Part shown: positions 589-18,037 of the stretch, piece after piece
How positions within the stretch are numbered: position 1 is the first letter of the stretch
Layout of the letters: each line of letters starts with the position of its first letter
Source: a virus
Length of the DNA stretch: 22,784 bases
Strand: one strand, 5' to 3'
Virus record (IMG/VR): IMGVR_UViG_3300046011_000883
Span: 1 to 22,784 of that record
Position numbers and translations under genes: made by a program
The notes under the pieces: model-generated
What the model saw: the letters and a program-made list of their open reading frames with translations, nothing else
What the model was told of the DNA's origin: nothing
Database searches by the model: none

Positions 589-935
589 TGGGTAGCGCAG
601 CCAAAGCAAAAGGCTCAGGAGCAGAGCGAGATGTAGTTAAATACCTCAAGCAATGGTTCCCTTATGTAGACAGACGCTTGGCTGGTGCAACCCTAGACAA
701 AGGTGACATCTCTGGTATTCCTGGTGTTACCATTGAGATAAAAAACCACGCCAAGATGGACTTGGCGGGTTGGACAGAAGAGTTGATAGTCGAGATGGCT
801 AACGACAACGCATGGACAGGTGTGGTGTGGCACAAACGGAAGGGTAGGGGAAGCCCTGAAGATTGGTACTGCACCATGCCTGGCTATGTGTATGTAGATT
901 TATTAAGGAGAGCAATTGGAAAGGGACAAGCCTGA
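588..935 (+). CDS. PD-(D/E)XK nuclease, Holliday-junction-resolvase-like
   Basis: A 115-aa protein of the size usual for small archaeal/phage-type resolvases. The nuclease motif is readable: an N-terminal glutamate in GSGAERDV (E13), an aspartate in KGDISG (D40), then E50-x-K52 in TIEIKN, the classic D...ExK metal-binding arrangement on a beta hairpin. Such proteins cut branched DNA, resolving recombination or replication intermediates before packaging. The start overlaps the 46-aa gene stop (TAATG). Its 3' end overlaps the primase zinc-finger gene by 20 nt. Another PD-(D/E)XK endonuclease role, such as a VRR-NUC-like one, is possible; the fold call is stronger than the substrate call. Confidence 0.75.
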   Translation: MGSAAKAKGSGAERDVVKYLKQWFPYVDRRLAGATLDKGDISGIPGVTIEIKNHAKMDLAGWTEELIVEMANDNAWTGVVWHKRKGRGSPEDWYCTMPGYVYVDLLRRAIGKGQA

Positions 936-1299
936 CATTGGTGAGTACCTCCACTACATAGGCGCCACCGTGCCTGCTATAGGCAGCGGTTGGCGCAAGA
1001 TGAAGTGCCCGTTTCATATAGATTCACATGCATCAGCAGCAGTAAACTTTGATAAGAACGCCTTTATCTGCCACGGTTGTGGAGTTAAGGGCGATACTTA
1101 TTCCCTAATTATATACAAAGAAGGTGGTGATTATCGTGAGGCTGTCAAATTCGCAGCGTCAGTTCTTGCTTCAGGCAACACAGAGATACGCAGCCAAGAT
1201 AAATCTCGCAGAAGATTATCTGGCAAGCCGTCAACTCTCGGTAGAAGAGGCAAGCATCTTTCATCTGGGGGTGGTAGACGAACCGCTTCCAGGTCATGA
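916..1299 (+). CDS. DNA primase, N-terminal CHC2 zinc-finger part
   Basis: The start is a TTG at 916 set by a strong Shine-Dalgarno AAGGAG (905..910), five bases upstream and inside the nuclease gene. Residues 31-55 hold the primase zinc finger: C31-P-F-H34 and C52-x2-C55 within ICHGCGVKGD, the DNA-binding ribbon of DnaG-type primases. Sequence up to about residue 90 (GDYREAVKFAASV) looks like normal primase. The tail after that is Arg/Ser/Gly-rich and low in complexity, as expected when reading past the point where the coding frame has moved. The TOPRIM half lies in the +1 frame (1124..1768). The pair therefore looks like one primase divided by a frameshift, or two subunits translated separately. 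The primase call is firm; the mechanism is open. Confidence 0.82.
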   Translation: MERDKPDIGEYLHYIGATVPAIGSGWRKMKCPFHIDSHASAAVNFDKNAFICHGCGVKGDTYSLIIYKEGGDYREAVKFAASVLASGNTEIRSQDKSRRRLSGKPSTLGRRGKHLSSGGGRRTASRS

Positions 1300-1768
1300 G
1301 CCTTACAAAGGTAGACTTGCTATCCCATACATTACACCATCAGGTGTAGTTGATATTAGATTCCGTTCACTGCATGGTGAAGACCCTAAGTATATGGGTC
1401 TAGTAGGTGCAAAGACTACAATGTTTAATACACAAGCATGCTTTGTTGCAGATAAATACATTTGCGTCACCGAAGGTGAGTTCGATTGCATCATGATGAG
1501 TGTCAAAACCTCACATCCTACGGTAGGTATTCCTGGTGCAAACAACTGGAAACCTCACTATAGTAAGATTTTAGATGACTTCGATGTGGTCATAGTCCTT
1601 GCAGACGGTGATGCTGCAGGGCTAGAGTTCGGTAAGAAAATCAGTAGAGAGTTAGGTAATGTCAACATTATCAGCATGCCTGATGGCGAAGACGTCAATA
1701 GCATGATGATTAAACAAGGAAGTGAGTGGCTAGATGAGCGAATCAGAGAGTGCGTTACCCCCGCTTGA
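1124..1768 (+). CDS. DNA primase, C-terminal TOPRIM part
   Basis: This frame carries the catalytic TOPRIM domain: VTEGEFD (E117, E119) and VLADGDAAG (D161, D163), which bind the metal ions for primer synthesis. Before it come a helical segment (LAEDYLASRQLSVEEA) and a primase core-like strand LAIPYITPSG. The frame opens at a GTG at 1124; GTGs at 1127 and 1136 are alternatives, and AAGGTG at 1121..1126 could serve the 1136 start as a Shine-Dalgarno. The first 15-20 residues read poorly, while plausible primase sequence appears near QRYAAKINLAEDY, suggesting entry from the upstream frame around 1170..1200. The overlap with the zinc-finger frame is 176 nt. There is no helicase domain in this chain; the ATPase upstream may supply it. 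Confidence 0.82.
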   Translation: MVIIVRLSNSQRQFLLQATQRYAAKINLAEDYLASRQLSVEEASIFHLGVVDEPLPGHEPYKGRLAIPYITPSGVVDIRFRSLHGEDPKYMGLVGAKTTMFNTQACFVADKYICVTEGEFDCIMMSVKTSHPTVGIPGANNWKPHYSKILDDFDVVIVLADGDAAGLEFGKKISRELGNVNIISMPDGEDVNSMMIKQGSEWLDERIRECVTPA

Positions 1769-2048: not shown

Positions 2049-2328
2049 TGACGCTAAAGTCATTGTAAATCACCTACTTCAGACACTTTATGATAAGCAT
2101 GCAGACTATGGTCCTATGAATATTGCAGGTGCACCTGGTGGTCCAATGAATGGATTACGTGTGCGCATGTATGACAAGTTGGCTAGACTTAACAACCTGT
2201 TAGATACAGGCGACACGCCAAAGTATGAATCATTAGAAGATACACTACTTGACCTTGCAAACTATGCCATAATTGGACTGCTTGTCCAGCGTGGACAGTG
2301 GGAGGGAATCCCTAGCAATGGAGAATAG
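2035..2328 (+). CDS. DUF1599-like protein (nucleotide-modification-associated domain type)
   Basis: A 97-aa protein with a compact pattern I associate with DUF1599: KHADYGPMN near residues 21-29, VRMYDKLARLNNLL in the middle and ESLEDTLLDLANYAIIGLL at the end. Spaced acidic residues on helices (YDKLARLNN, EDTLLDLANYA) resemble the metal-binding helices of all-alpha NTP pyrophosphatase-like folds. Families of this type are often found in phage genomes near DNA replication or base-modification genes. The ATG at 2035 lies inside the previous gene. I see no modification enzyme in this window, so a link to DNA modification here is untested; nucleotide-pool housekeeping is an alternative. Confidence 0.68.
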   Translation: MKNPDDAKVIVNHLLQTLYDKHADYGPMNIAGAPGGPMNGLRVRMYDKLARLNNLLDTGDTPKYESLEDTLLDLANYAIIGLLVQRGQWEGIPSNGE

Positions 2329-2330
2329 AT

Positions 2331-3068
2331 GTGAAACGAGTAGTCGTATTGAGCGATTTACAGATACCGTACCAACACGATAAAACTGTAGATGCCACAT
2401 TAGAGTTTATCCAAGACTATAAACCAGATGAACTCTGGTGTGTAGGAGATGAACTAGATGCACCAGAACCATCACGTTGGAACAAGGGTATGGCAGGAGA
2501 ATATGCTGAGACCCTACAAGATAGTATTGATTTAACGCACGACATTATGGCTCGTTACCGCAAGGCTCTAGGTAACAAGCCATTTTACATTCAACGCAGT
2601 AATCATACTGACCGCATTGATACATACATGCGCAAGTATGCGCCAGCCTTTATGTCACTCAAGTCATTAGAGATTGAGGAACTACTAGGCTACGGCAAGT
2701 TAAAAATTAATTACTTACACAAGATGCATGAGTTGTTACCTGGTTGGGTAATGGCACACGGAGATGAAGGAGCACTTAACCGTGCACCAGGGGCTACTGC
2801 ATTGAACTTAGCAAAACGTTTAGGTAAATCTGTAGTGTGTGGACACACGCATCGTGTTGGATTACAACATGAGACCACAGGATTTTATGGGAAAACCAGT
2901 ACTTTATACGGGTTAGAGGTGGGGCATATGATGGATGTCAAGCAGGCTAGTTACCTCACATCAGGCTCTGCCAACTGGCAGCATGGTCTTGGTATCCTTG
3001 TTGAGCACAACCGTAAGGTTACACCGTTTGCAGTTCCAATTGTAAATGGTGAGGTAATTATTCCATAA
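2331..3068 (+). CDS. Metallophosphoesterase (calcineurin-like)
   Basis: A 245-aa single-domain phosphoesterase with the metal-binding motifs in order: SDLQ (D9, Q11), VGDELD (G39-D40, D43), the GNHD/E-equivalent SNHTDR (N91-H92), HGDE (H143) and CGHTHR (H172, H174). Such enzymes use two metal ions to cleave phosphomonoesters or diesters; phage members may act on DNA ends, nucleotides or RNA, and the substrate is not readable. The start is a GTG at 2331 with GGAG seven bases upstream; an overlapping ATG at 2329 is in another frame. The gene lies two bases after the DUF1599-like gene and its stop overlaps the next start (TAATG). The first motif has Gln where many relatives have His. Confidence 0.85.
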   Translation: MKRVVVLSDLQIPYQHDKTVDATLEFIQDYKPDELWCVGDELDAPEPSRWNKGMAGEYAETLQDSIDLTHDIMARYRKALGNKPFYIQRSNHTDRIDTYMRKYAPAFMSLKSLEIEELLGYGKLKINYLHKMHELLPGWVMAHGDEGALNRAPGATALNLAKRLGKSVVCGHTHRVGLQHETTGFYGKTSTLYGLEVGHMMDVKQASYLTSGSANWQHGLGILVEHNRKVTPFAVPIVNGEVIIP

Positions 3069-3712
3069 TGAATTACATTGCTGAGTACAACGAGTTAGTA
3101 CAGCAACTCTCATCTGAATATTCTAAGCGTTATAGTATGTTAGAACGTGATGATATAGGACAAGAGTTGTGGGTGTGGTTTGTTAGCCATCCCCGTAAGT
3201 ACAAAGAGTGGTCTGCATTAGAACAAAAAGACCGCGATAAGTTAATTGCCAAGTCACTTCGTAATGCTGCGCTTAAGTTTTGTGAGCGCGAGAAGGCTAA
3301 GAAAACAGGTTATGATATATCAGACCTGTATTACTATGACCTTTCTGTAGTAGAAGCATTCTTGCCTTCTATCATTGGGGAATCTTATGAGATTCCTACA
3401 AAAATTCAAGACCTTAATGCTAAGTTTGGTAGTGGTGCAGCATCAGATGGCAACAACTGGTTGTCATTGCGCTCAGATATTGCATCTGCATTTTATAAGT
3501 TAACAGATGCTAAGCAAAATATATTAAGGTTGCGTTTTAGTATTGACTCACCTGACTGGACATTGCTATCTAAAGATATGGATAGCACACCAGATGGTGC
3601 GCGTATGAAAGTACAACGTGCACTTAACTCATTGGTTAAAAACTTAGGAGGCTGGAAGCCTTACTATGAACCAGACCAAGAAACAGAAGTAAGTGAACGA
3701 CCTCAGGGGTGA
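3068..3712 (+). CDS. Sigma-70-like transcription factor
   Basis: A 214-aa protein in two parts. The N-terminal half has a region-2-like signature (DDIGQELWVWFVSHP followed by KEW, then LIAKSLRNAALKFCEREKAKK), as in extracytoplasmic-type sigma factors that bind core RNA polymerase and the -10 element. The C-terminal part (about residues 142-196) reads as a region-4 helix-turn-helix: LTDAKQNILRLRF, then TLLSKDMDSTPDGARMKVQRALNSLVKNL. It is the most likely switch for phage late transcription, directing host polymerase to phage promoters. The ATG overlaps the phosphoesterase stop. With WhiB a few genes downstream, this end of the arm looks like a regulatory module. The family is diverged and I cannot name the promoter it recognises. 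Confidence 0.72.
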   Translation: MNYIAEYNELVQQLSSEYSKRYSMLERDDIGQELWVWFVSHPRKYKEWSALEQKDRDKLIAKSLRNAALKFCEREKAKKTGYDISDLYYYDLSVVEAFLPSIIGESYEIPTKIQDLNAKFGSGAASDGNNWLSLRSDIASAFYKLTDAKQNILRLRFSIDSPDWTLLSKDMDSTPDGARMKVQRALNSLVKNLGGWKPYYEPDQETEVSERPQG

Positions 3713-3875
3713 GCCAGCATTCGCATGCATATGCGGATGTAAGATGTTTAGAGTTACCGTTATGTGGGATGAAGAAACTAGAGCAGTTGGCTGGTATGAT
3801 TTAGCCCAAGAATGTATAGAGTGTGGAACAGTTACAACTGCACCTACTGAGATAGATGGAGATGATTGTGCCTAA
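3693..3875 (+). CDS. Small zinc-ribbon protein, 60 aa
   Basis: Starts at a GTG (3693) inside the sigma-like gene and overlaps the next gene start by 8 nt. Two cysteine knuckles are visible: C12-x-C14-G-C16 and C41-x2-C44-G-T, about 25 residues apart, a rubredoxin/zinc-ribbon spacing. Zinc ribbons of this size commonly bind nucleic acid or act as assembly surfaces in transcription complexes, and its place beside the sigma-like gene suggests the same here (inference). The aromatic linker (VMWDEETRAVGWYDL) would form the central strands. No named family is recognised. The first ten residues have no close Shine-Dalgarno, so translation probably depends on coupling. Confidence 0.68.
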   Translation: MNDLRGEPAFACICGCKMFRVTVMWDEETRAVGWYDLAQECIECGTVTTAPTEIDGDDCA

Positions 3876-4035
3876 CTATGATTACAAATGCGACCTGTGT
3901 AATATGACGCAAGAAGTTTATCGTGAGTTTGGAGATGACAGGGAACCAACCTGTTGTCAAATGGTAATGACTAGGATATGGACTTCGCCACCTGTAAAGT
4001 TTAAGGGTGGCGGGTTCTATAGCACAGGAGGATAA
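3868..4035 (+). CDS. FmdB-like zinc-ribbon protein, 55 aa
   Basis: The GTG at 3868 overlaps the previous gene's final codons. The product starts MPNYDYKCDLCNMTQEVY, very like FmdB-family putative regulatory zinc ribbons (MPxYxYxCxxCxxxxE). It continues with the second knuckle TCC (C29, C30) and the usual tail with R-I-W-T-S-P-P-V-K-F-K-G-G-G-F-Y followed by STGG. Cys 8 and 11 pair with 29 and 30 to hold zinc. FmdB members are widespread small proteins of uncertain role, often called transcription regulators, and are frequent in phages. The gene ends just before an AGGAGG Shine-Dalgarno for the next gene. The family assignment is good despite the small size. Confidence 0.8.
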   Translation: MPNYDYKCDLCNMTQEVYREFGDDREPTCCQMVMTRIWTSPPVKFKGGGFYSTGG

Positions 4036-4038
4036 GCA

Positions 4039-4149
4039 ATGAAATGGATTATAGTCTTTGTACTATATGTAGGATTTACAGGTTTAATCATATCCTTTAT
4101 GATGGGAGCAAGTCGCAAAGACAATACGTCACGTGACACTAACAGTTAA
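4039..4149 (+). CDS. Single-pass membrane peptide, 36 aa
   Basis: ATG at 4039 has a near-perfect AGGAGG (4026..4031) seven bases upstream, the best ribosome site on this arm, so the short frame is very probably translated. Residues 3-23 (WIIVFVLYVGFTGLIISFM) form one membrane helix. The tail (GASRKDNTSRDTNS) is basic then polar, predicting a cytoplasmic C-terminus. No family is recognised. Its place ahead of WhiB and away from the lysis genes argues against a holin. A membrane anchor, a superinfection-exclusion peptide or a host-takeover peptide are all possible; none is shown. Confidence 0.7.
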   Translation: MKWIIVFVLYVGFTGLIISFMMGASRKDNTSRDTNS

Positions 4150-4162
4150 AGGAAGCCATAAA

Positions 4163-4423
4163 ATGTACGCATTCAGAGAAGAGGCTAACTGTGCAGACAC
4201 AGACTCAGAGGCTTTCTTTACAGTAGAGAAAACCAGTACGTACACAGATATAAAGATGCTGCGTAGGATATGTGGCAACTGCACAGTAGTAGACCAGTGC
4301 CTAGACTATGCCCTTAAGCATGAGGTACTAGGGTATTGGGGCAATACCACTGAGTTTCAACGCAAGAAGTTACGAACTAAACTGGGTATAATTCCACGCC
4401 AGTTGCACCTAGACTACAATTAA
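4163..4423 (+). CDS. WhiB-family iron-sulphur transcription regulator
   Basis: An 86-aa protein with the four cysteines of the Wbl family: C10, C37-x2-C40-x5-C46, which hold a [4Fe-4S] cluster sensitive to redox or nitric oxide, followed by the tryptophan turn G57-Y-W-G-N and a basic C-terminal helix (EFQRKKLRTKLG) for DNA. Wbl proteins bind the host principal sigma factor region 4 and redirect RNA polymerase; phage copies are known to interfere with host regulators and superinfection. The turn here is GYWGN rather than the usual G[V/I]WGG, a mild deviation. I chose the ATG at 4163, which has GGAAG seven bases upstream, over an in-frame GTG at 4133. It is the last gene before the terminator and the best host marker in the window. 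Confidence 0.92.
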   Translation: MYAFREEANCADTDSEAFFTVEKTSTYTDIKMLRRICGNCTVVDQCLDYALKHEVLGYWGNTTEFQRKKLRTKLGIIPRQLHLDYN

Positions 4424-11208: not shown

Positions 11209-14200
11209 TTAGTCTCTTCCATTAAAGTAGTTAGTGATGTCTGCAATGTTTTTTATTGTTAGCGTATTGCGGAATATGGCTGCACCAATGAACTCCATAA
11301 AGGCATAAGTACTAGCAGTAGGTGAGATTGCACCTATTCTTAAAGGATTTATTGAACCAACTGGCGTAGTTATTGTACTTATACTTGCAGTAGTAGCAGT
11401 ACCAGCATTTTTAATTAAACTAATTAAATTAGTTGAACGGTCTACGATTGCTACGTGAGTATTAAGAACACCATTTACCCAACCTGCAGGAATAGATGTG
11501 CTATCTGTAGCAGCAACTGCAGCAGTTCCACTTACTCCAGAGTAAACTCTATTTACACCACCAGATTGTGATGTAACAGCAAGCCAATAACCAGGTTCAA
11601 CTGTTCCAGCAACAATGGTACGATTTCCAATAAGCGCACCGCTTATTGCTGTATCCCATTGTCTGTGAATTACAAGATAGGTAAACGAATCAGTAGCACC
11701 AAAGTTCAAGAAGTCTGTAGTGCTATTGCTAAAGGTGTTAGTTGCTCCTGGGTAGAGGTAACCAGCATCAATAACACCAGCACTGCGGAATGTGCTACCA
11801 GAACGGTTGATTGTTACAGTGGCACCATTAGTTGAGGATTCAGTAAATGTTGTCTGGTTAAGGCTGGTGATGCTGTTCTCAAAGTTAGCATCGAAGGCTA
11901 CTGTGCCGTTGATACCGTTGAGTACCTGTGCGCGGAAGAACTTGCCACGGGATACTCCACCACCTTGACTATTTGAGCCAACCGCAAGAATCGCTGTTCC
12001 AGAGTAAATACTGGTTACTCCAGCAGTAGTTTGAGTAGTTCCTAATTGAGTCCAAGTAATACCGTCATCTGAAGTATAGAAAATAACATCGTTACCTGAT
12101 GCTCCGTTGTCTACATCAAGGGTTGCACGAATCCACTTTGTAGAACCATCTGTTATTCCTGTAGCAACTGATGATGTTTTAGTTATTGCAGTGCTTCCGT
12201 TTGTCGTCCAATAAAAATAAACTTTCCCATCAATACCAATTTCTAAATCATAAGAAAGTTGTCCAGTTGCCCATTTGCCTAATAAAGTATTTGCAGTAGA
12301 AGGTGTCCAGTCATCTAAGGCAACCTTCACACGTAGGTCCAAGTCACCTGTGATGTCCAGCGCAGCAGCATCAGGTGCTGAGGCATAGTTAGAAGTAACA
12401 CCTGGCAGATACAGATAGTTGCCAGTAGATACGAATGTACCAACGCCAGACTTGTTAATAGTAACTGTGTAGGCATTGCTTGAACGGTCTACAAATGTAG
12501 TCTGAGATGGCAGTGTGATTACTGAGGCATCAGCATCTAGGACTATTGTGCCATCAATACCGTTAAGGACTTGAGCACGGAAGAACTTACCCTTTGTTAA
12601 AGTAGAGGTTCCAGCATCTGCAGTTCCAATTTCTAGATTTCCACCACCGTCAAAGATTGATGTAACACCAGCGGTAGTTACAGTTGCTCCCAACTGTGTC
12701 CACGTTGTGCCGTCATCTGAACTAAAGAACTTGACATCATTACCACTGGCTCCGTTGTCCACATCGAGTGTGGCACGAACCCACTTGGTTGCTCCGTCGG
12801 CAATACTTAAAGCAACTGTAGAAGTTTTTGTTATTAAAGTACTACCGTTGGCAGACCATCTGAAGGTAAGTGTTGAATCAGAATTTACTAATAGTGAGTA
12901 ACTTCTATTTCCACCAGACCATTTTCCAAGCATTGATTGGTTAGTTACGGCACTCCAGTCATCTAATGCAAACTTGGCACGTAAATCAATATCTCCTGTA
13001 ACGGATAGTGGCGGTGTATCAGATACCGTCATATAGTTGCCAGAGGCACCAGAGAGGTAGACATAGTTCTCGGCTGCAGTTGAATGAGCCATATAGCGGT
13101 TGTTGACTTCCATATAGTCATCAGTACCAAAGAGCCAAGTAGGTTGAGTTACAGCAACAGTTTTGCGTCCAGAGGTGGATCGGTTGATGGTAACTGTTTG
13201 ACCAGTAACTGCGGTAAAGGATGTAGCAGCACCTGTAGTAATAACTGAGGTGTCTACATCGAGGACTGTTGTACCGCCAATGCCGTTGAGGATTTGTGCG
13301 CGGTAGACTTTACCTGTAAGCGGAGTCGTACCGATATCAGGAATTGCTCCAATACGCACAGGTGCTGTACCGACATAAATGCTTGTAACACCAGCGTTTG
13401 TTACTGTACTTCCCAACTGTGTCCAACTTGTTCCGTTGTCTGATAAGAAGAACTTGACATCATTACCAGAGGCACCATTATCTACGTCTAATGTGGCACG
13501 AACCCATTTTGCTGTGCCATCTGTTACACCTGTTGCAATTGTACTTGTTGCCGTTGTAACCGTACTGCCATCGGCTGACCATTGAAAAGTAACAAAACCT
13601 GTTGAGTTAATTGCTATCTTGTAACTGCGATTGCTTAGTGTTTGCTTAGCAAGTAATTCATTTTGAGTGGCTGGAGTCCAATCGTCAAGTGCTCCATACC
13701 AACGTAGGTCAATATCACCTGTAATATCCAATGCTGCTGCATCTGGTACTTCCAAATAATTTGTAATAGACCCAGGCAGATACACATAATTAGTGCCAGT
13801 ATGGTCTAGGAACTTAGGATCGTTAGAGTCTGCAGCAAGGCTAGAGCCAACAGTAGTTGGGAGTAGTGAGCCAGCAGTGCCATAGTTGGCAACCGTTCCT
13901 ACGCCATTAACTGTAACTGTCTGACCAGTAGTAGCGGTAAAGGTGTCTAGGTTAGAAGACTTGTAATCGGTAGCAATGTTGACATCAAGGACTGTTGTAC
14001 CGTCAATACCGTTAAGAATCTGTGCTCGGTAGATTTTCTGCGCTTGAGCGATTGCAAGATTTGTTTGAGCACCAATTTGAATTTCCGTTGTACTTACATA
14101 AATGTTTCCACTTGTTACAGTAACATTTGTTCCTAATTGAGTCCAAGTGGTTCCATCGGTAGAAGTAAAGAACTGACAGACACCAGTTGCTGCTACTCTA

Positions 14201-14862
14201 GTGGCTCTAATCCACCTTGCTACACCATTTGGAATTGATAAAGCCACTGTTGATTCAGCAAAAATTCCTGTTGTTCCATCTGAAGAAACTCGTAATTGAA
14301 CCCCATTTGATGAGTTCATACCAAGGCTATAAGACCTTTGGTTGCCCGTAGATTGATATTTACCAATCCAAATTGAAACGGCAGAAGGCGCCCAGTTGTC
14401 CATTGCAACATAGACTCTTAAATCAATATCGCCAGTAATATCAAGATTGTTAGCATCTGGTACAGATAGACGGTTTCCGTCAATATTAGGCAGATAAACA
14501 TAACCAAGGCTACCCCAGTTGGTAGGAGTAGCAGCATCTACATAGTAAGAAGCAGAGCGTGCAGTAGTTCCCTTAAGTAGTACCTCTGCTGGGTGATTGA
14601 TGGTGCGTAGTGCATCAACATCAGACAAGCCAGTAGTTCCTGCTAGTTCATTACAAACTGCAGTAAGTCCCTTGTAATTATTATCTGTACGGTTAGGGTC
14701 AACAATGTAGTTGAGAGCACCCAATAACCCAAGACCTGAGGTACCTGCCCAAACGTTGGCAGCACCTTGCTCTTCTAGGAAGTCATCTCTATCTGGGTAT
14801 ACGCCATAGTTTGCGATACGGTTGAGTTCTGCACATAATGGACTACCAGTATTACCAGCCAT
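11209..14862 (-). CDS. Large virion protein with four tandem LamG/ConA-lectin-like domains, 1217 aa
   Basis: The first 110 residues are a non-repeated adaptor (CAELNRIANYGVYPDRDDF; NYIVDPNRTDNNYKGLTAVC). Four copies of a 215-240-residue beta-sandwich domain follow, each opening with YVYLPG-like and carrying DITGDIDLR-x5-[MLD]-D-[DN]-W, then WVRATLDVDNGASGNDV-type strands and KxYRAQILNGI. DIDLR motifs lie near residues 146, 384, 625 and 841. The last 165 residues (LNFGATDSFTYLVIHRQW ...) form a fifth, diverged sandwich. These are concanavalin-A-like/LamG folds, which bind sugars or act as spacers. It most likely forms the host-contacting tail fibre or spike. Shine-Dalgarno GGAAGG lies eight bases before ATG. 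The family class is firm, the ligand unknown. Confidence 0.82.
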   Translation of the reverse strand: MAGNTGSPLCAELNRIANYGVYPDRDDFLEEQGAANVWAGTSGLGLLGALNYIVDPNRTDNNYKGLTAVCNELAGTTGLSDVDALRTINHPAEVLLKGTTARSASYYVDAATPTNWGSLGYVYLPNIDGNRLSVPDANNLDITGDIDLRVYVAMDNWAPSAVSIWIGKYQSTGNQRSYSLGMNSSNGVQLRVSSDGTTGIFAESTVALSIPNGVARWIRATRVAATGVCQFFTSTDGTTWTQLGTNVTVTSGNIYVSTTEIQIGAQTNLAIAQAQKIYRAQILNGIDGTTVLDVNIATDYKSSNLDTFTATTGQTVTVNGVGTVANYGTAGSLLPTTVGSSLAADSNDPKFLDHTGTNYVYLPGSITNYLEVPDAAALDITGDIDLRWYGALDDWTPATQNELLAKQTLSNRSYKIAINSTGFVTFQWSADGSTVTTATSTIATGVTDGTAKWVRATLDVDNGASGNDVKFFLSDNGTSWTQLGSTVTNAGVTSIYVGTAPVRIGAIPDIGTTPLTGKVYRAQILNGIGGTTVLDVDTSVITTGAATSFTAVTGQTVTINRSTSGRKTVAVTQPTWLFGTDDYMEVNNRYMAHSTAAENYVYLSGASGNYMTVSDTPPLSVTGDIDLRAKFALDDWSAVTNQSMLGKWSGGNRSYSLLVNSDSTLTFRWSANGSTLITKTSTVALSIADGATKWVRATLDVDNGASGNDVKFFSSDDGTTWTQLGATVTTAGVTSIFDGGGNLEIGTADAGTSTLTKGKFFRAQVLNGIDGTIVLDADASVITLPSQTTFVDRSSNAYTVTINKSGVGTFVSTGNYLYLPGVTSNYASAPDAAALDITGDLDLRVKVALDDWTPSTANTLLGKWATGQLSYDLEIGIDGKVYFYWTTNGSTAITKTSSVATGITDGSTKWIRATLDVDNGASGNDVIFYTSDDGITWTQLGTTQTTAGVTSIYSGTAILAVGSNSQGGGVSRGKFFRAQVLNGINGTVAFDANFENSITSLNQTTFTESSTNGATVTINRSGSTFRSAGVIDAGYLYPGATNTFSNSTTDFLNFGATDSFTYLVIHRQWDTAISGALIGNRTIVAGTVEPGYWLAVTSQSGGVNRVYSGVSGTAAVAATDSTSIPAGWVNGVLNTHVAIVDRSTNLISLIKNAGTATTASISTITTPVGSINPLRIGAISPTASTYAFMEFIGAAIFRNTLTIKNIADITNYFNGRD
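11713..14502 (-). repeat. Four tandem diverged lectin-domain repeats within the 1217-aa gene
   Basis: Matching DNA blocks encoding (D/I)-T-G-D-[IL]-D-L-R occur near 14420, 13705, 12982 and 12334, spaced about 715, 723 and 648 nt. The third copy is preceded by an extra linker (VTQPTWLFGTDDYMEVNNRY). Divergence is greater at the first copy, and copies 2-4 share whole strands such as WVRATLDVDNGASGNDV, suggesting more recent duplication or homogenisation. Confidence 0.82.
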
Positions 14863-14895: not shown

Positions 14896-15153
14896 TTACC
14901 ATTTAACTTTGTCAGCCCAGTAGGCTGCGCTCATTTTACCTTTTTGGATATTGGCTTTGTGACGAGCCTTAAAAGATTTCTGTCTTGCTGTTGGCTTCTT
15001 GTCGCCAGTGACACCCTGTTGACCAAAACGAATAGTCTTGACCTTGCTACCTTCTTTTGCTACAACAACGTGTGACTTGGTTGGGTGACTAGGTGTACGC
15101 TTTGGCTTGTTAAAGCCAGATACTCCTATTCGCTTTAGTCTAGGGTCTGTCAT
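14896..15153 (-). CDS. Basic small phage protein, 85 aa
   Basis: Rich in Lys and Arg (about 24 of 85) with no cysteine and no membrane span. The C-terminal half (KKPTARQKSFKARHKANIQKGK, split here, then MSAAYWADKVKW) is a pattern I recognise from small conserved phage proteins. The role is unknown; strong basicity suggests binding to packaged DNA or to acidic virion proteins. The ATG follows the preceding stop directly (TAAATG). It is the last and longest-conserved member of the run of tiny basic genes, and lies 33 bases before the lectin-like gene. Confidence 0.75.
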   Translation of the reverse strand: MTDPRLKRIGVSGFNKPKRTPSHPTKSHVVVAKEGSKVKTIRFGQQGVTGDKKPTARQKSFKARHKANIQKGKMSAAYWADKVKW

Positions 15154-15309
15154 TTACTTAACCTTTTTTAGATTCGGATTCTTTTTCTTTGCTTTTGCAC
15201 TTGCCTTGCGTGTAGATGATGCGAGGATTGCACCAGCAGACTTCATCGATACACCGCTCTTTTTTGCTATACTCTTCTGTGCTGCTTTGAAGCCCATACC
15301 CTTTGGCAT
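15154..15309 (-). CDS. Basic small protein, 51 aa
   Basis: The start ATG overlaps the previous stop (TAATG at 15307..15311) and its stop is followed at once by the next ATG. The product (MPKGMGFKAAQKSIAKKSGV..., then KASAKAKKKNPNLKKVK) has some 19 Lys/Arg in 51 residues and no acidic residue at all. Alanine- and lysine-rich, it resembles histone-H1-like tails. A longer frame on the same strand (15158..15346) is a shadow: it has poor composition and ignores both overlaps. DNA binding or virion packing is inferred. Confidence 0.72.
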   Translation of the reverse strand: MPKGMGFKAAQKSIAKKSGVSMKSAGAILASSTRKASAKAKKKNPNLKKVK

Positions 15310-15593
15310 TATCTACGCTTGCCTTTGCTGTCATAACGGTTTCCAATTAGGGAACCAAGGAATTGTCCACGTTCTGCTTCTGCTTTCTTACCAGCAGCAG
15401 ATGCTGCTTTCTTTAATGCTGGTCGCTGTGAAGGTGGATAGTTCTTTGCCTTATCAGTTGCATCAACTGAACGGCTCCAAGCCTTTGCTGCTTCGGAGCC
15501 TTCCTTAACAACATTGCCTACATAGCCTGCAACAGGTCGGTAGATTTTGTCCATAAATGAACGGTCGCTTGCTGATTTACGTGTGCTTGCCAT
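15309..15593 (-). CDS. Basic small protein, 94 aa
   Basis: A helical, basic protein (MASTRKSASDRSFMDKIYRP, then VAGYVGNVVKEGSEAAKAWS, and a Lys/Arg/Ala-rich tail ending DSKGKRR). It is the most mixed in composition of the run, with some acidic residues and a glycine-containing amphipathic centre (GQFLGSLIGNRYD). It follows the 51-aa gene's stop without a gap (stop at 15594, ATG at 15593) and overlaps the next start. No family recognised; a structural role in the head is inferred from its neighbours. Confidence 0.72.
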   Translation of the reverse strand: MASTRKSASDRSFMDKIYRPVAGYVGNVVKEGSEAAKAWSRSVDATDKAKNYPPSQRPALKKAASAAGKKAEAERGQFLGSLIGNRYDSKGKRR

Positions 15594-15749
15594 TTACTTC
15601 TTCTTTCTTACTGCTACGTTGTCTATTAGATTTGGATAAGGACGTCCTGCTGCTTTAGCACGAGCCTTAGCCTTAGCCTTTTGCGCTGCTGTTAGTGGAG
15701 TTGATTTCTTCTTAGGATTCTTAGTATCCCAAAATGGTTTCTTCTTCAT
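15594..15749 (-). CDS. Basic small protein, 51 aa (KKKPFWDTKNPKKK type)
   Basis: Starts MKKKPFWDTKNPKKKSTPLT, then an Ala/Lys helix (AAQKAKAKARAKAAGRP) and ends YPNLIDNVAVRKKK. This arrangement, a short aromatic basic head, an Ala/Lys helix and a PYPNL-x-D motif, looks like a small phage protein I have seen repeatedly, of unknown role. The ATG overlaps the 21-aa peptide's stop (TAATG). The highly basic nature suggests contact with DNA or RNA. Translation evidence is the double junction and the conserved-looking motif. Confidence 0.75.
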   Translation of the reverse strand: MKKKPFWDTKNPKKKSTPLTAAQKAKAKARAKAAGRPYPNLIDNVAVRKKK

Positions 15750-15814
15750 TAGCACTTACACGCCTTATCTGACTTGCCACATAAGCGGCACTTGCCTGGT
15801 TTACGGATTGGCAC
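15749..15814 (-). CDS. 21-aa zinc-knuckle-like mini-protein
   Basis: A GTG at 15814 follows immediately on the upstream gene's stop (TAAGTG) and the stop overlaps the next ATG (TAATG). The product (MPIRKPGKCRLCGKSDKACK, then C) has four cysteines, C9-x2-C12-x6-C19-x-C21, enough to hold one zinc, and eight Lys/Arg. At 21 residues it would be a minimal zinc knuckle; no family is recognised. Support is the exact fit between neighbours and the cysteine pattern, but it could also be a chance frame. Confidence 0.6.
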   Translation of the reverse strand: MPIRKPGKCRLCGKSDKACKC

Positions 15815-15937
15815 TTACTTCTTCTTCTTCTTAGCAGTCTTCTTTACCATCTTTTTGCCAGACTTCTTTGCTTCTGCTTTAGCCATTGCCATACCCTTAG
15901 CGGTATATGGGAACTCTTTTCCGTTTACCTTTGGCAT
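15815..15937 (-). CDS. Basic small protein, 40 aa (MPKVNGKEFPYT type)
   Basis: Starts MPKVNGKEFPYTAKGMAMAK and ends in a run of lysines (KKTAKKKKK). The head MPKV-x-G-K-x-F-P-Y-T-x-x-G-M is a pattern I know from small proteins in many phage genomes, close to capsid or tail genes. It follows the previous stop directly (TAAATG). Fifteen of 40 residues are Lys. The function is unknown; internal head protein or DNA-condensing peptide is the natural guess. Confidence 0.75.
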   Translation of the reverse strand: MPKVNGKEFPYTAKGMAMAKAEAKKSGKKMVKKTAKKKKK

Positions 15938-16057
15938 TTACTTCATCTTCTTCTTAGCGACAGCCTTCTTTGCAACCTTCTTGGCTACAGCCTTCTTAGC
16001 AGTCTTCTTAGCAGACTTCTTCATCATCATATCCATCATCATATTCTTGTTCATCAT
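15938..16057 (-). CDS. Met/Lys/Ala-repeat peptide, 39 aa
   Basis: Starts MMNKNMMMDMMMKKSAKKTA with nine methionines and continues as AKK/VAKK repeats (KKAVAKKVAKKAVAKKKMK), 17 Lys in 39 residues. This is a histone H1 C-tail-like sequence able to bind DNA by charge. The ATG overlaps the upstream stop (TAATG at 16055..16059). The next gene follows directly. It opens the mini-gene run and is its most extreme member. A chance frame is unlikely given the junctions and repeated codons. Confidence 0.72.
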   Translation of the reverse strand: MMNKNMMMDMMMKKSAKKTAKKAVAKKVAKKAVAKKKMK

Positions 16058-16485
16058 TATATTGTTCCTACTTCCTTTAGTACTTCGGTTGTATTTTTAT
16101 TGATGTGTTGTGCAGGAGGCATCTTCTCAGCGTTGTAAGGTTTGTTAAGAACCTCACTAGCATTGTATGCTGCTTCCACGTGTTGCCTTGTTGTACCACC
16201 TGGTTGCATACCCTGAGCACGTGCGTCTCTGTATGCTTGGAGTTCACCAGTCCATTTCTTGTCAGATATGTCTCTGGTTGCATCTCCTGCATTCATCTGT
16301 AAAGTTTTTACTTTACATCCGAAGCAATCTTCATCACAGGCTGTGTGGTCTATTTCAATCTCTTCGTGCTCAAAGGGAGCATCTGAAGTTTCATCACACA
16401 AAGAACAACCCCACTTAAGTGCCTTGAAGTTGTGGTTCTCATCAAATCCAAAATCTAATACCTTGCTAATATGGATGTGTTCCAT
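16057..16485 (-). CDS. Zinc-binding-like hypothetical protein, 142 aa
   Basis: The N-terminal 60 residues hold five cysteines with nearby histidines: C27-x2-C30 (WGCSLC), then C50-x3-C54-x2-C57 (TACDEDCFGCK), a treble-clef or ribbon-like zinc site. Residues 58-110 (VKTLQMNAGDATRD ... KKWTGELQAYRDARAQGMQP) form a charged helical module with a Gly-Thr turn, a block I associate with proteins of actinobacterial phages of unknown role. The C-terminus is polar. It lies between the small protein after the capsid and the basic mini-genes. Its start follows the 13-base motif TGTCCCCTATTGT (read on the + strand). No enzyme motif is seen. Confidence 0.75.
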   Translation of the reverse strand: MEHIHISKVLDFGFDENHNFKALKWGCSLCDETSDAPFEHEEIEIDHTACDEDCFGCKVKTLQMNAGDATRDISDKKWTGELQAYRDARAQGMQPGGTTRQHVEAAYNASEVLNKPYNAEKMPPAQHINKNTTEVLKEVGTI

Positions 16486-16493
16486 TGTGTCCC

Positions 16494-16763
16494 CTATTGT
16501 GCTGTAAAGTTTGCCTCTGTTACTCCGACATTGCCAGCAATTAATGCTGCCTTTGTTGCTTCACTTACTGTGTGGTTATATCCACCACGATAAACTTCTT
16601 GGTAAGTAGCCAAGTCACCATCTACTAGATAACGTTGTTGAGAGTAGACACCATCTTGTCTGATGATAGTAATGCCTCTATCAATCTTGTAAAAACTAAA
16701 TAGGCGATGAGCACCAGCAGGTCCTTCTGCGACTACTGGTGTCTTGAATGTATATGTTGTCAT
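16494..16763 (-). CDS. Small conserved phage protein after capsid, 89 aa
   Basis: An 89-aa protein of mixed strands (TTYTFKTPVVAEGPAGAHRL, then FSFYKIDRGITIIRQDG; YSQQRYLVDGDLATYQEVYR) ending in a short helix (SEATKAALIAGNVG). I recognise the type, beginning MTTYTF-x-TP and holding YQEVYRGGYNHTVSE, from phages related to actinobacterial ones, where it follows head genes. No function is established; its position suggests a head decoration or completion protein. GGGAG lies five bases before the ATG, the site just after the capsid's downstream hairpin. No cysteines. Confidence 0.75.
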   Translation of the reverse strand: MTTYTFKTPVVAEGPAGAHRLFSFYKIDRGITIIRQDGVYSQQRYLVDGDLATYQEVYRGGYNHTVSEATKAALIAGNVGVTEANFTAQ

Positions 16764-16828: not shown

Positions 16829-18037
16829 TTATAGAGCGCCGATTGATGAACCTGATTCGATTCGGTATAGTGCTTCTTCGCGGTAGCGAGCAAAGCCAAG
16901 TACGCCGTACCAACCCATTGGGCGGAAGCGCATCAACTTGTCAACTACTGGTCCGATTACTACGTGTGGCTCTTCGGCAACTGCCTCAGCCATTGCTTGC
17001 TGTCCAGCAAGGATTGTGTCGTAGACACGTGTTACTGGAGTTACTGTGATTGTTGCTCCCACAGTTACAGCAGCAGAGTTAGCAACGTCAACAGTAAATG
17101 TTGTTGTTGAACCTGATGTTGCGATACCAGTAATCTTTGCAGATGTACCTACGCCTGTACCAGAAATCTTGTCTCCAACTTCAGCGCGTGTTGCGATAAC
17201 AGATGATGATGCAACGCCGAATGTGAATGCAGCAGATACACCAGCAACTGTTGCTGTTGTTGTTGCTAGAGCAGTCTGGTCTGCACCAATCTTGTCAGAA
17301 GCAATACGTGGTGACTCGATGAAGTATGCACCTTCGTATGAACCGATTTCACCAGCCCAAATGTTTTCATTTGTCTGGTAGTTGTGTGGGTCGCGCCAAG
17401 CAGCAGCACCTGTCTCAGCACGAAGGTCGTGTGAAACTTCTGGGTGAATACCTGCCCAGTACATTGCACCCTTACGGTATGCAGCCTTGTTAGCACGCAA
17501 CTTTGCAACAGCCTTACGGATGTTTGCGGAAGTTAGTGTTGCAGCAGCAGTAACTGTTGCTGATGATGTTGCAGTTGAACCTGAGTAGATTACGTTAGTT
17601 CCTGCACCTAGTGTCGCCATTGCAACTGTGTCGATAGAATCGGCAAGGTTGAATGCGATGATGTTAGCAACTGCTGGGTCTACGTCTGCAAGTGAGAAGA
17701 GTTCCAAAGCACGTGTTACCAATACAGAGTTACCGTACTCGTTAAGAGTAATTGTAACTGTGTTTGGTGTTGTCAATGAAACTGCATCTGGGTCAGATGT
17801 TTCTGTAAGAGCAGTTGTTGCCTGTGATAGGTCGTTGTACTTCTGTAGAACGACTGTTGAACCTGGTGTTGACTGGTTAGTTGGACGCTTATCTGCAACT
17901 GAACGAATTAGTGGTTCGGCGCGGAGAGCGAATTCGACAAGGCGGTCATACGCCTTCTGTACTAAACCAGCACCACCTGCGGTACCTCCGAGGGAAGCAG
18001 CGCCTGTTGATGTTGTGCCTGTGTATGATGTAGGCAT
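16829..18037 (-). CDS. Major capsid protein, N4-gp56-like, 402 aa
   Basis: The sequence has the marks of the N4-gp56 capsid family (HK97 fold): a Gly/Thr/Ala-rich start, then YDRLVEFALRAEPLIRSVADKR, GSTVVLQKYNDL, LNEYGNSVLVTRALELFS, and the C-terminal MGWYGVLGFARYREEALYRIES. Residues about 252-336 form a Thr/Ser/Ala-rich beta insertion (FTFGVASSSVIATRAEVGDK; TTTFTVDVANSAAVTVGATI) between capsid blocks, like an Ig/FCCH-type added domain. The gene has a strong GGAGGT Shine-Dalgarno (in a small hairpin, 18044..18059) and a hairpin after it. It follows the scaffold gene. The family is fairly sure; the insert may be a decoration domain or part of the shell. Confidence 0.85.
   Translation of the reverse strand: MPTSYTGTTSTGAASLGGTAGGAGLVQKAYDRLVEFALRAEPLIRSVADKRPTNQSTPGSTVVLQKYNDLSQATTALTETSDPDAVSLTTPNTVTITLNEYGNSVLVTRALELFSLADVDPAVANIIAFNLADSIDTVAMATLGAGTNVIYSGSTATSSATVTAAATLTSANIRKAVAKLRANKAAYRKGAMYWAGIHPEVSHDLRAETGAAAWRDPHNYQTNENIWAGEIGSYEGAYFIESPRIASDKIGADQTALATTTATVAGVSAAFTFGVASSSVIATRAEVGDKISGTGVGTSAKITGIATSGSTTTFTVDVANSAAVTVGATITVTPVTRVYDTILAGQQAMAEAVAEEPHVVIGPVVDKLMRFRPMGWYGVLGFARYREEALYRIESGSSIGAL

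Follow-up and report, generated by a model that had tools for sequence, protein, structure and literature searches.

The window, by which we mean the whole 22,784-nt stretch analysed, is a 22.8-kb virus record representing part of a tailed phage, and between positions 14896 and 16057 it carries an array of seven consecutive small genes, all on the minus strand. The first, g1 (15938..16057; 39 aa; net charge +14), has a Met-rich N-terminus followed by AKK repeats and belongs to the K-rich families of the first slot (clusters F18, F19, F28, F42 and F11). It is followed by g2 (15815..15937; 40 aa; +13; family F0), g3 (15749..15814; 21 aa; +6; F14), which has a GTG start and encodes a CxxC-x6-CxC mini knuckle, g4 (15594..15749; 51 aa; +15; F4), g5 (15309..15593; 94 aa; +12; F8), g6 (15154..15309; 51 aa; +15; F7) and g7 (14896..15153; 85 aa; +18; F1), the summed net charge being +93. 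The number, strand, lengths and limits of these genes were correctly given in the original prediction, as was the way in which they are joined: TAATG overlaps are found between g1 and the 142-aa gene preceding it, between g3 and g4 and between g5 and g6, and a stop codon abuts the next start at g1/g2, g2/g3 (where the start is GTG), g4/g5 and g6/g7. The prediction had also noted that one gene lacks acidic residues, which is true of g6, and had counted 17 Lys in the 39-aa gene, where g1 holds 15. Its description of six strongly Lys/Arg-rich products, with the 21-residue four-cysteine peptide set apart, holds for the polybasic character of the set, but the K/R content of g5 is moderate (22%) and the cysteine peptide is itself basic (7 K/R), so that all seven products are basic. 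Per residue, the net charge of g1 to g7 exceeds that of 14 small genes elsewhere in the window (Mann-Whitney p = 1.5e-4).

The array lies in a zone of head genes, although not immediately beside the capsid gene as had been proposed. The major capsid protein gene (16829..18037, minus strand; phrog_1357 major head protein, E 1.7e-80) is directly followed by a conserved 89-aa gene (16494..16763, minus strand; phrog_8987) and then by the Cys-containing 142-aa gene (16057..16485, minus strand; phrog_24600). These two intervening products are neutral (net 0) and acidic (net -10), respectively, unlike those of the array. After the array comes a gene for a 1217-aa protein (11209-14862, minus strand) in which repeated LamG-like units were recognised by eye; its short N-terminal domain is, in relatives, a protein by itself, about 90 aa long (ELNRLANGG), and the protein is apparently expanded in the lineage of the window.

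The nearest cultured relatives are the Planktophila phages LanE43AprE7 and F5 (OX376640/1), with 84% identity for the capsid protein and 89% for g7. These phages are the first isolates on the freshwater actinobacterial order Ca. Nanopelagicales (PMC10202952), and the window is a member of the large freshwater phage group that includes them, relatives of its capsid protein being encoded by hundreds of IMG/VR contigs. An ORF at 4133-4423 appears WhiB-like by eye, which would agree with the marker given for actinophages in that study (PMC10202952). Also by eye, a primase-like zinc-finger ORF (916-1299, plus strand) overlaps a TOPRIM-like ORF (1124-1768, plus strand) in a different frame, and the pair may represent two separate genes or one primase with a frameshift. 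No tRNA gene was found in the window by ARAGORN; in Streptomyces phage Kumquat (L088), a run of 21 tRNA genes (2314-4327) lies just upstream of the homologous capsid gene. Kumquat, a soil relative with the same capsid family, has no array, and the array is thus dispensable for this kind of head.

The conservation of each short frame was assessed from synonymous and non-synonymous change among homologues, as the original prediction had suggested. Pooled dN/dS values, based on pairs more than 60% identical, with synonymous sites near saturation in several families, were 0.25 for g1, 0.14 for g2, 0.18 for g3 (five pairs), 0.10 for g4, 0.18 for g5 (six pairs), 0.11 for g6 and 0.09 for g7, and ranged from 0.06 to 0.34 across all families, indicating purifying selection in every one. 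Since synonymous change lies far above non-synonymous change within each family, the seven ORFs are real genes. The frames, whose breakage in relatives would have spoken against the prediction by its own account, are intact in 60 related arrays, and tiled junctions (-8 to +2 nt) occur at 257 of the 298 array boundaries. The low-complexity AAG repeats present in g1 and g2 could suggest spurious frames in a stretch rich in Lys codons, an explanation that these intact frames, the tiled junctions and the dN/dS range make extremely improbable; frames arising by chance are ruled out by dN/dS. The excess of charge, the existence of relatives for every family and the recurrence of the g2-g7 order indicate together that the pattern is beyond chance.

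Gene content was compared among the 60 related genomes in which both array borders could be placed. Each array holds 4 to 9 genes drawn from about 54 sequence clusters, with a K-rich gene of the g1/g2 type at the first position (the g2 family is present in 53 of the 60). The g5 family is one among several occupants of the second position, the most variable, and g3 is kept in seven loci (L047, L066, L068, L108, L179, L180 and L186). Three genes of the window have alternatives in relatives, and the members of each pair replace one another. The first alternative, DUF6321 (PF19846; family F9; 76.3 bits, above the cut-off of 28.5), stands for g7 in 8 arrays against 52 that carry g7, with neither both nor none in any array (p 4e-10). 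Likewise, a DUF5872-like pair of genes (F2) is found in 32 arrays and g4 in 22, never together (p 3e-11), and DUF6496 (PF20106; F3; 43.6 bits, cut-off 24) in 26 arrays and g6 in 13, with both in a single genome (p 9e-4); these p-values ignore relatedness. DUF5872 (PF19197) scores 26.5 bits for a fused 131-aa form of the pair (110 aa submitted), just below the cut-off of 27.5, and gives no match for the split, two-gene forms. Mapped on the capsid tree, the minimum number of switches is 5 for g7/DUF6321, 12 for g4/DUF5872-like and 8 for g6/DUF6496, and among a further 130 loci, 80 of which had been selected for carrying the g4 family, none of the three pairs co-occurred. Profile-profile similarity between slot partners is weak: g7 aligns with DUF6321 over only 13 columns (hhalign E 0.021, probability 2%), and 5 of 32 g7 relatives match DUF6321 (best E 8e-4).

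These results change the view of the array as a whole ordered set. The order is mostly kept, although not strictly, the g4 family being early in the window and L123 differing as well. A synteny search recovered the g2-g7 order (F0 F14 F4 F8 F7 F1) in two further contigs only, L179 and L180, while other relatives carry exchangeable subsets; a fixed ordered module is ruled out by the varying gene content of the 60 arrays. The array is an assembly of exchangeable cassettes with slots.

Exchange occurs mainly at gene ends. The window and locus L002 share about 95% identity that starts upstream and reaches into g2 as far as its Lys-codon end; L002 then has a single 57-aa gene in place of g3-g6, and identity returns at the start of g7. 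Among 153 identity breakpoints identified in 116 genome pairs, 70% fall within 30 nt of a gene end compared with 25% for random positions, bearing in mind that the pairs are not independent and that selection against chimaeric proteins would yield the same pattern. Among Lys codons, AAG is slightly commoner at gene ends than inside genes (odds ratio 1.6), which would be in keeping with a part played in coupling or recombination.

What does not vary is the charge. All 343 array products of the 60 genomes have a net charge of at least +6, with a median of +15 and a Lys:Arg ratio of 4:1, and the summed charge per array ranges from +55 to +146. These 343 comprise the products of at least 35 aa plus the 21-aa g3 family, taken without any charge filter, and leave out fifteen shorter ORFs, mostly gap fillers picked by the tiling script. 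That charge is kept while the sequence is replaced fits a polyanion such as DNA as the partner, and this retention of charge through sequence turnover is the strongest hint in that direction.

Three of the genes belong to families already catalogued in PHROG without an assigned function: g2 (phrog_33179, E 4.9e-10), g4 (phrog_34011, E 9.2e-24) and g7 (phrog_7595, E 8.8e-36, a full-length match over positions 6-96 of 96). Over a stretch, g7 also matches profiles of longer proteins, including one named 'minor head protein and DNA pilot' (E 2e-4, and 5e-5 for a relative of g7). In the alignment, its family shows the invariant motif N-K-P..TP.H..K..V....IRFG..R....SA..W, with 16 invariant residues. 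It is probably related to Tlr6F/DUF5754 (PF19058); the family aligns over nearly all 49 positions of that model and 13 of 32 members match it at E <= 0.1; assignment of g7 as a confident Tlr6F member was rejected, its score of 13.6 bits, and that of its best relative (17.5), being under the Pfam gathering cut-off of 27.4.

Structures were modelled by AlphaFold2 with input alignments restricted to sequences of the window and related loci. The model of g7 is unusable (pLDDT 51). That of g6, of moderate confidence (pLDDT 72), is an all-helical hairpin with a basic Lys tail, for which the top Foldseek matches are HU-DNA complexes at non-significant values (E 1.2-4; rmsd about 0.6 A over 28 residues), a lead for a putative stripped-down HU-like peptide. 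The 51-aa model passes from helices to the Lys tail and lacks the beta-ribbon DNA-binding arms of HU. Searches of solved structures with four family profiles returned nothing meaningful, designed tandem-repeat proteins being the sole matches for g6.

The array families also occur in phages without a relative of the window capsid in the DNA examined, and there again they are mostly found among head genes. In L218, the g7 family and F2 separate an SU10-type portal gene from the head genes that follow. The g7 family lies with F0 after the portal gene in L219, with F0 and F2 ahead of a capsid gene (phrog_267) in L195, with F4 and F0 directly before a terminase gene in L124 (order F4, F0, F1), and after the portal gene, F7 and F4 in L144; in L106, a capsid/protease gene is followed by F9, F4 and F3. 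When 101 flanking genes were scanned, the commonest functional families were the terminase large subunit, portal and adaptor; many flanking genes had no assignment, and a few were replication or glycosyltransferase genes. The g7 family is present in podoviruses including SIO1, P12053L and HMO-2011, and several array families span phages of cyanobacteria, alphaproteobacteria and actinobacteria. In the HMO-2011 record (L083), the annotated g7-like gene (2524-2817) shares part of its length with a second long frame annotated on that strand (2642-3679), and one of these annotations may be mistaken. Genes resembling g7 are also seen in metagenome-assembled genomes of many phyla (L187-L228), often adjoining phage head genes, and these are probably binned phage contigs. 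DUF6321 is found in 465 phage records, mostly of cyanophages. In T4-like cyanophages, it forms the C-terminal domain of the T4-GC119 proteins (271-532 aa), whose genes lie beside gp15/gp16, near neck and terminase genes; the domain protein of S-P4 is annotated as a 'structural protein', and in P-SCSP1i DUF6321 has a gene of its own, the next one after that for the capsid protein. No match to the array families was found in the 47 kb examined of S-CREM2, a phage with virion proteomics (PMC10665884).

This distribution, with genes between those for capsid and tail in the window and adjoining portal, adaptor and terminase genes elsewhere, would also be expected of small head or neck parts that serve as scaffold, cement or connector and do not bind DNA, and the 16 invariant residues of g7 suggest a specific fold or partner. 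Such a role is nevertheless quite unlikely in our opinion, because cement proteins need no uniform polybasic character and because the numbers and kinds of genes vary, from 4 to 9 per genome. In addition, the icosahedral shell of P-SCSP1u, solved by cryo-EM, consists of the capsid protein only, with no cement protein (PMC10575957), which is a mild argument against a cement role for the DUF6321 gene of its relative P-SCSP1i.

The unrelated pelagiphage HTVC035P (L095) departs from the head-gene linkage. It holds much of the toolkit: an unannotated 40-aa g2-like frame (2603-2722) lies directly before a DUF5872-like pair (2804-3231), and a DUF6321 gene is nearby (1639-1893). These genes are near DnaA-like and single-strand-annealing genes and not near known head genes, which counts against head-associated DNA-binding proteins, as do the missing array of Kumquat and the S-SM1 record, where the T4-GC119 protein is still hypothetical although 41 virion proteins were detected. 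Together with the weak resemblance of the g6 model to the HU helical hairpin, the HTVC035P locus would suit nucleoid or RNA-binding proteins that stay out of the virion and act late in the infected cell, on the host nucleoid, transcription or replication. We consider this improbable, as the linkage is mostly to head genes and the HU match is not significant (E 1.2), g6 having no beta arms.

Taken together, these data are best explained by a set of exchangeable, putatively DNA-binding proteins whose synthesis would accompany that of the head. They would probably be packaged, perhaps even be ejected, and work in the manner of the internal proteins of T-even phages; we would put such a function at an even chance. 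The proposal of mini-proteins for DNA condensation or head filling thus keeps its basis in real, polybasic, head-linked genes whose charge persists through sequence turnover, and loses the ordered set. Translational coupling of the polycations with the head genes would give matched amounts, and the products would accumulate with the capsid protein and either go into the prohead or associate with the DNA while it is packaged or afterwards. They could then neutralise or organise part of the phage genome, and some would possibly be ejected along with the DNA. By our calculation, half of the phosphates in a 39-kb genome would be neutralised if each of the seven products were present at about 420 copies, a value near the 360 given for every internal protein of T4 (PMC9026906). 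Selection would act to keep every slot filled and the charge maintained, leaving the occupant of a slot free to be exchanged between relatives by recombination, comparable to the varying basic internal head proteins of T-even phages. Against a DNA-only reading stands the affinity of polycations for RNA, membranes and the inside of capsids as well.

The T4 internal proteins IPI-III are basic, present at about 360 copies each, DNA-binding at low salt, ejected, and variable between relatives (PMC9026906, PMC9391042), and in one case anti-restriction (PMC9391042). The array proteins could be packaged in the same manner as IPI and IPIII but retained for what they do inside the host, as ejected anti-defence or takeover proteins whose swapping is driven by changing host defences. 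Their turnover and slot exchange would suit such a role, as would the inhibition of GmrSD by IPI, the need for IPIII on one E. coli strain (PMC9391042) and the variable basic proteins of the T-evens (PMC9026906). The low dN/dS of most families is unlike the usual signature of an arms race, the poly-Lys tails and the uniformity of charge suggest that the partner is a generic polyanion, and several families are common to phages of hosts as different as cyanobacteria, alphaproteobacteria and actinobacteria; we therefore regard host-directed action as unlikely, though with some claim to attention.

In the usual view, the DNA in tailed phages is packed almost naked, polyamines and metal ions serving as its counter-ions. 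If a widespread group of phages of very abundant freshwater bacteria maintains 4-9 polycationic mini-proteins per genome, this view would be challenged, and the question of packing is directly testable because two isolates with such an array (LanE43AprE7 and F5; families F11, F5, F3 and F1) exist. More broadly, the array could belong to a genome-packing kit under selection for its slots and net charge, its parts, a Tlr6F-like one among them, common to phages with unrelated heads and perhaps to polinton-like and giant viruses, which would make it a virus-wide accessory of DNA packing or delivery; we offer this extension as a possibility, doubtful at present. In the open-licence literature, no earlier description was found of the array, its slot organisation, the one-for-one replacement or the universal charge. 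The slot rule and charge conservation thus appear undescribed, and the claim of a novel module stands to that extent, the families of g2, g4 and g7 being already in PHROG.

Among known systems, the internal proteins of T4 offer the best model of the way in which the array may work. Its products resemble IPI, IPII and IPIII in small size, basic character and linkage to the head, in being several to a phage and in having a locus that differs among closely related phages. By sequence, the array does not belong to their family: PHROG and Pfam scans gave no homology to IPI, IPII or IPIII, and no shared N-terminus is obvious across the array families. The systems differ also in that T4 has, as far as the cited T4 literature shows, neither a coupled array adjoining the capsid gene nor an either/or slot rule, and in that packaging and ejection have been demonstrated for T4 and are putative for the array. 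Compared with basic proteins of other viruses and of chromatin, the array shows a likeness by composition alone, with no homology shown. The adenovirus core proteins and histone H1-like AKK tails share its polycationic, poly-Lys composition. In chloroviruses, basic virion proteins are stated to neutralise the genome (PMC7019647). Tlr6F/DUF5754, widespread in polinton-like viruses, virophages, giant viruses and some phages and with no function assigned (PMC4642659), is small and basic like g7, which differs in its score below the gathering threshold. Finally, DUF6321, DUF6496, DUF5872, phrog_7595, phrog_33179 and phrog_34011 all supply genes to the array of the window or of its relatives; databases list each of them singly and without function, and the array gives the DUF families, together with the Tlr6F-like one, a context of head-zone position and exchangeable slots.
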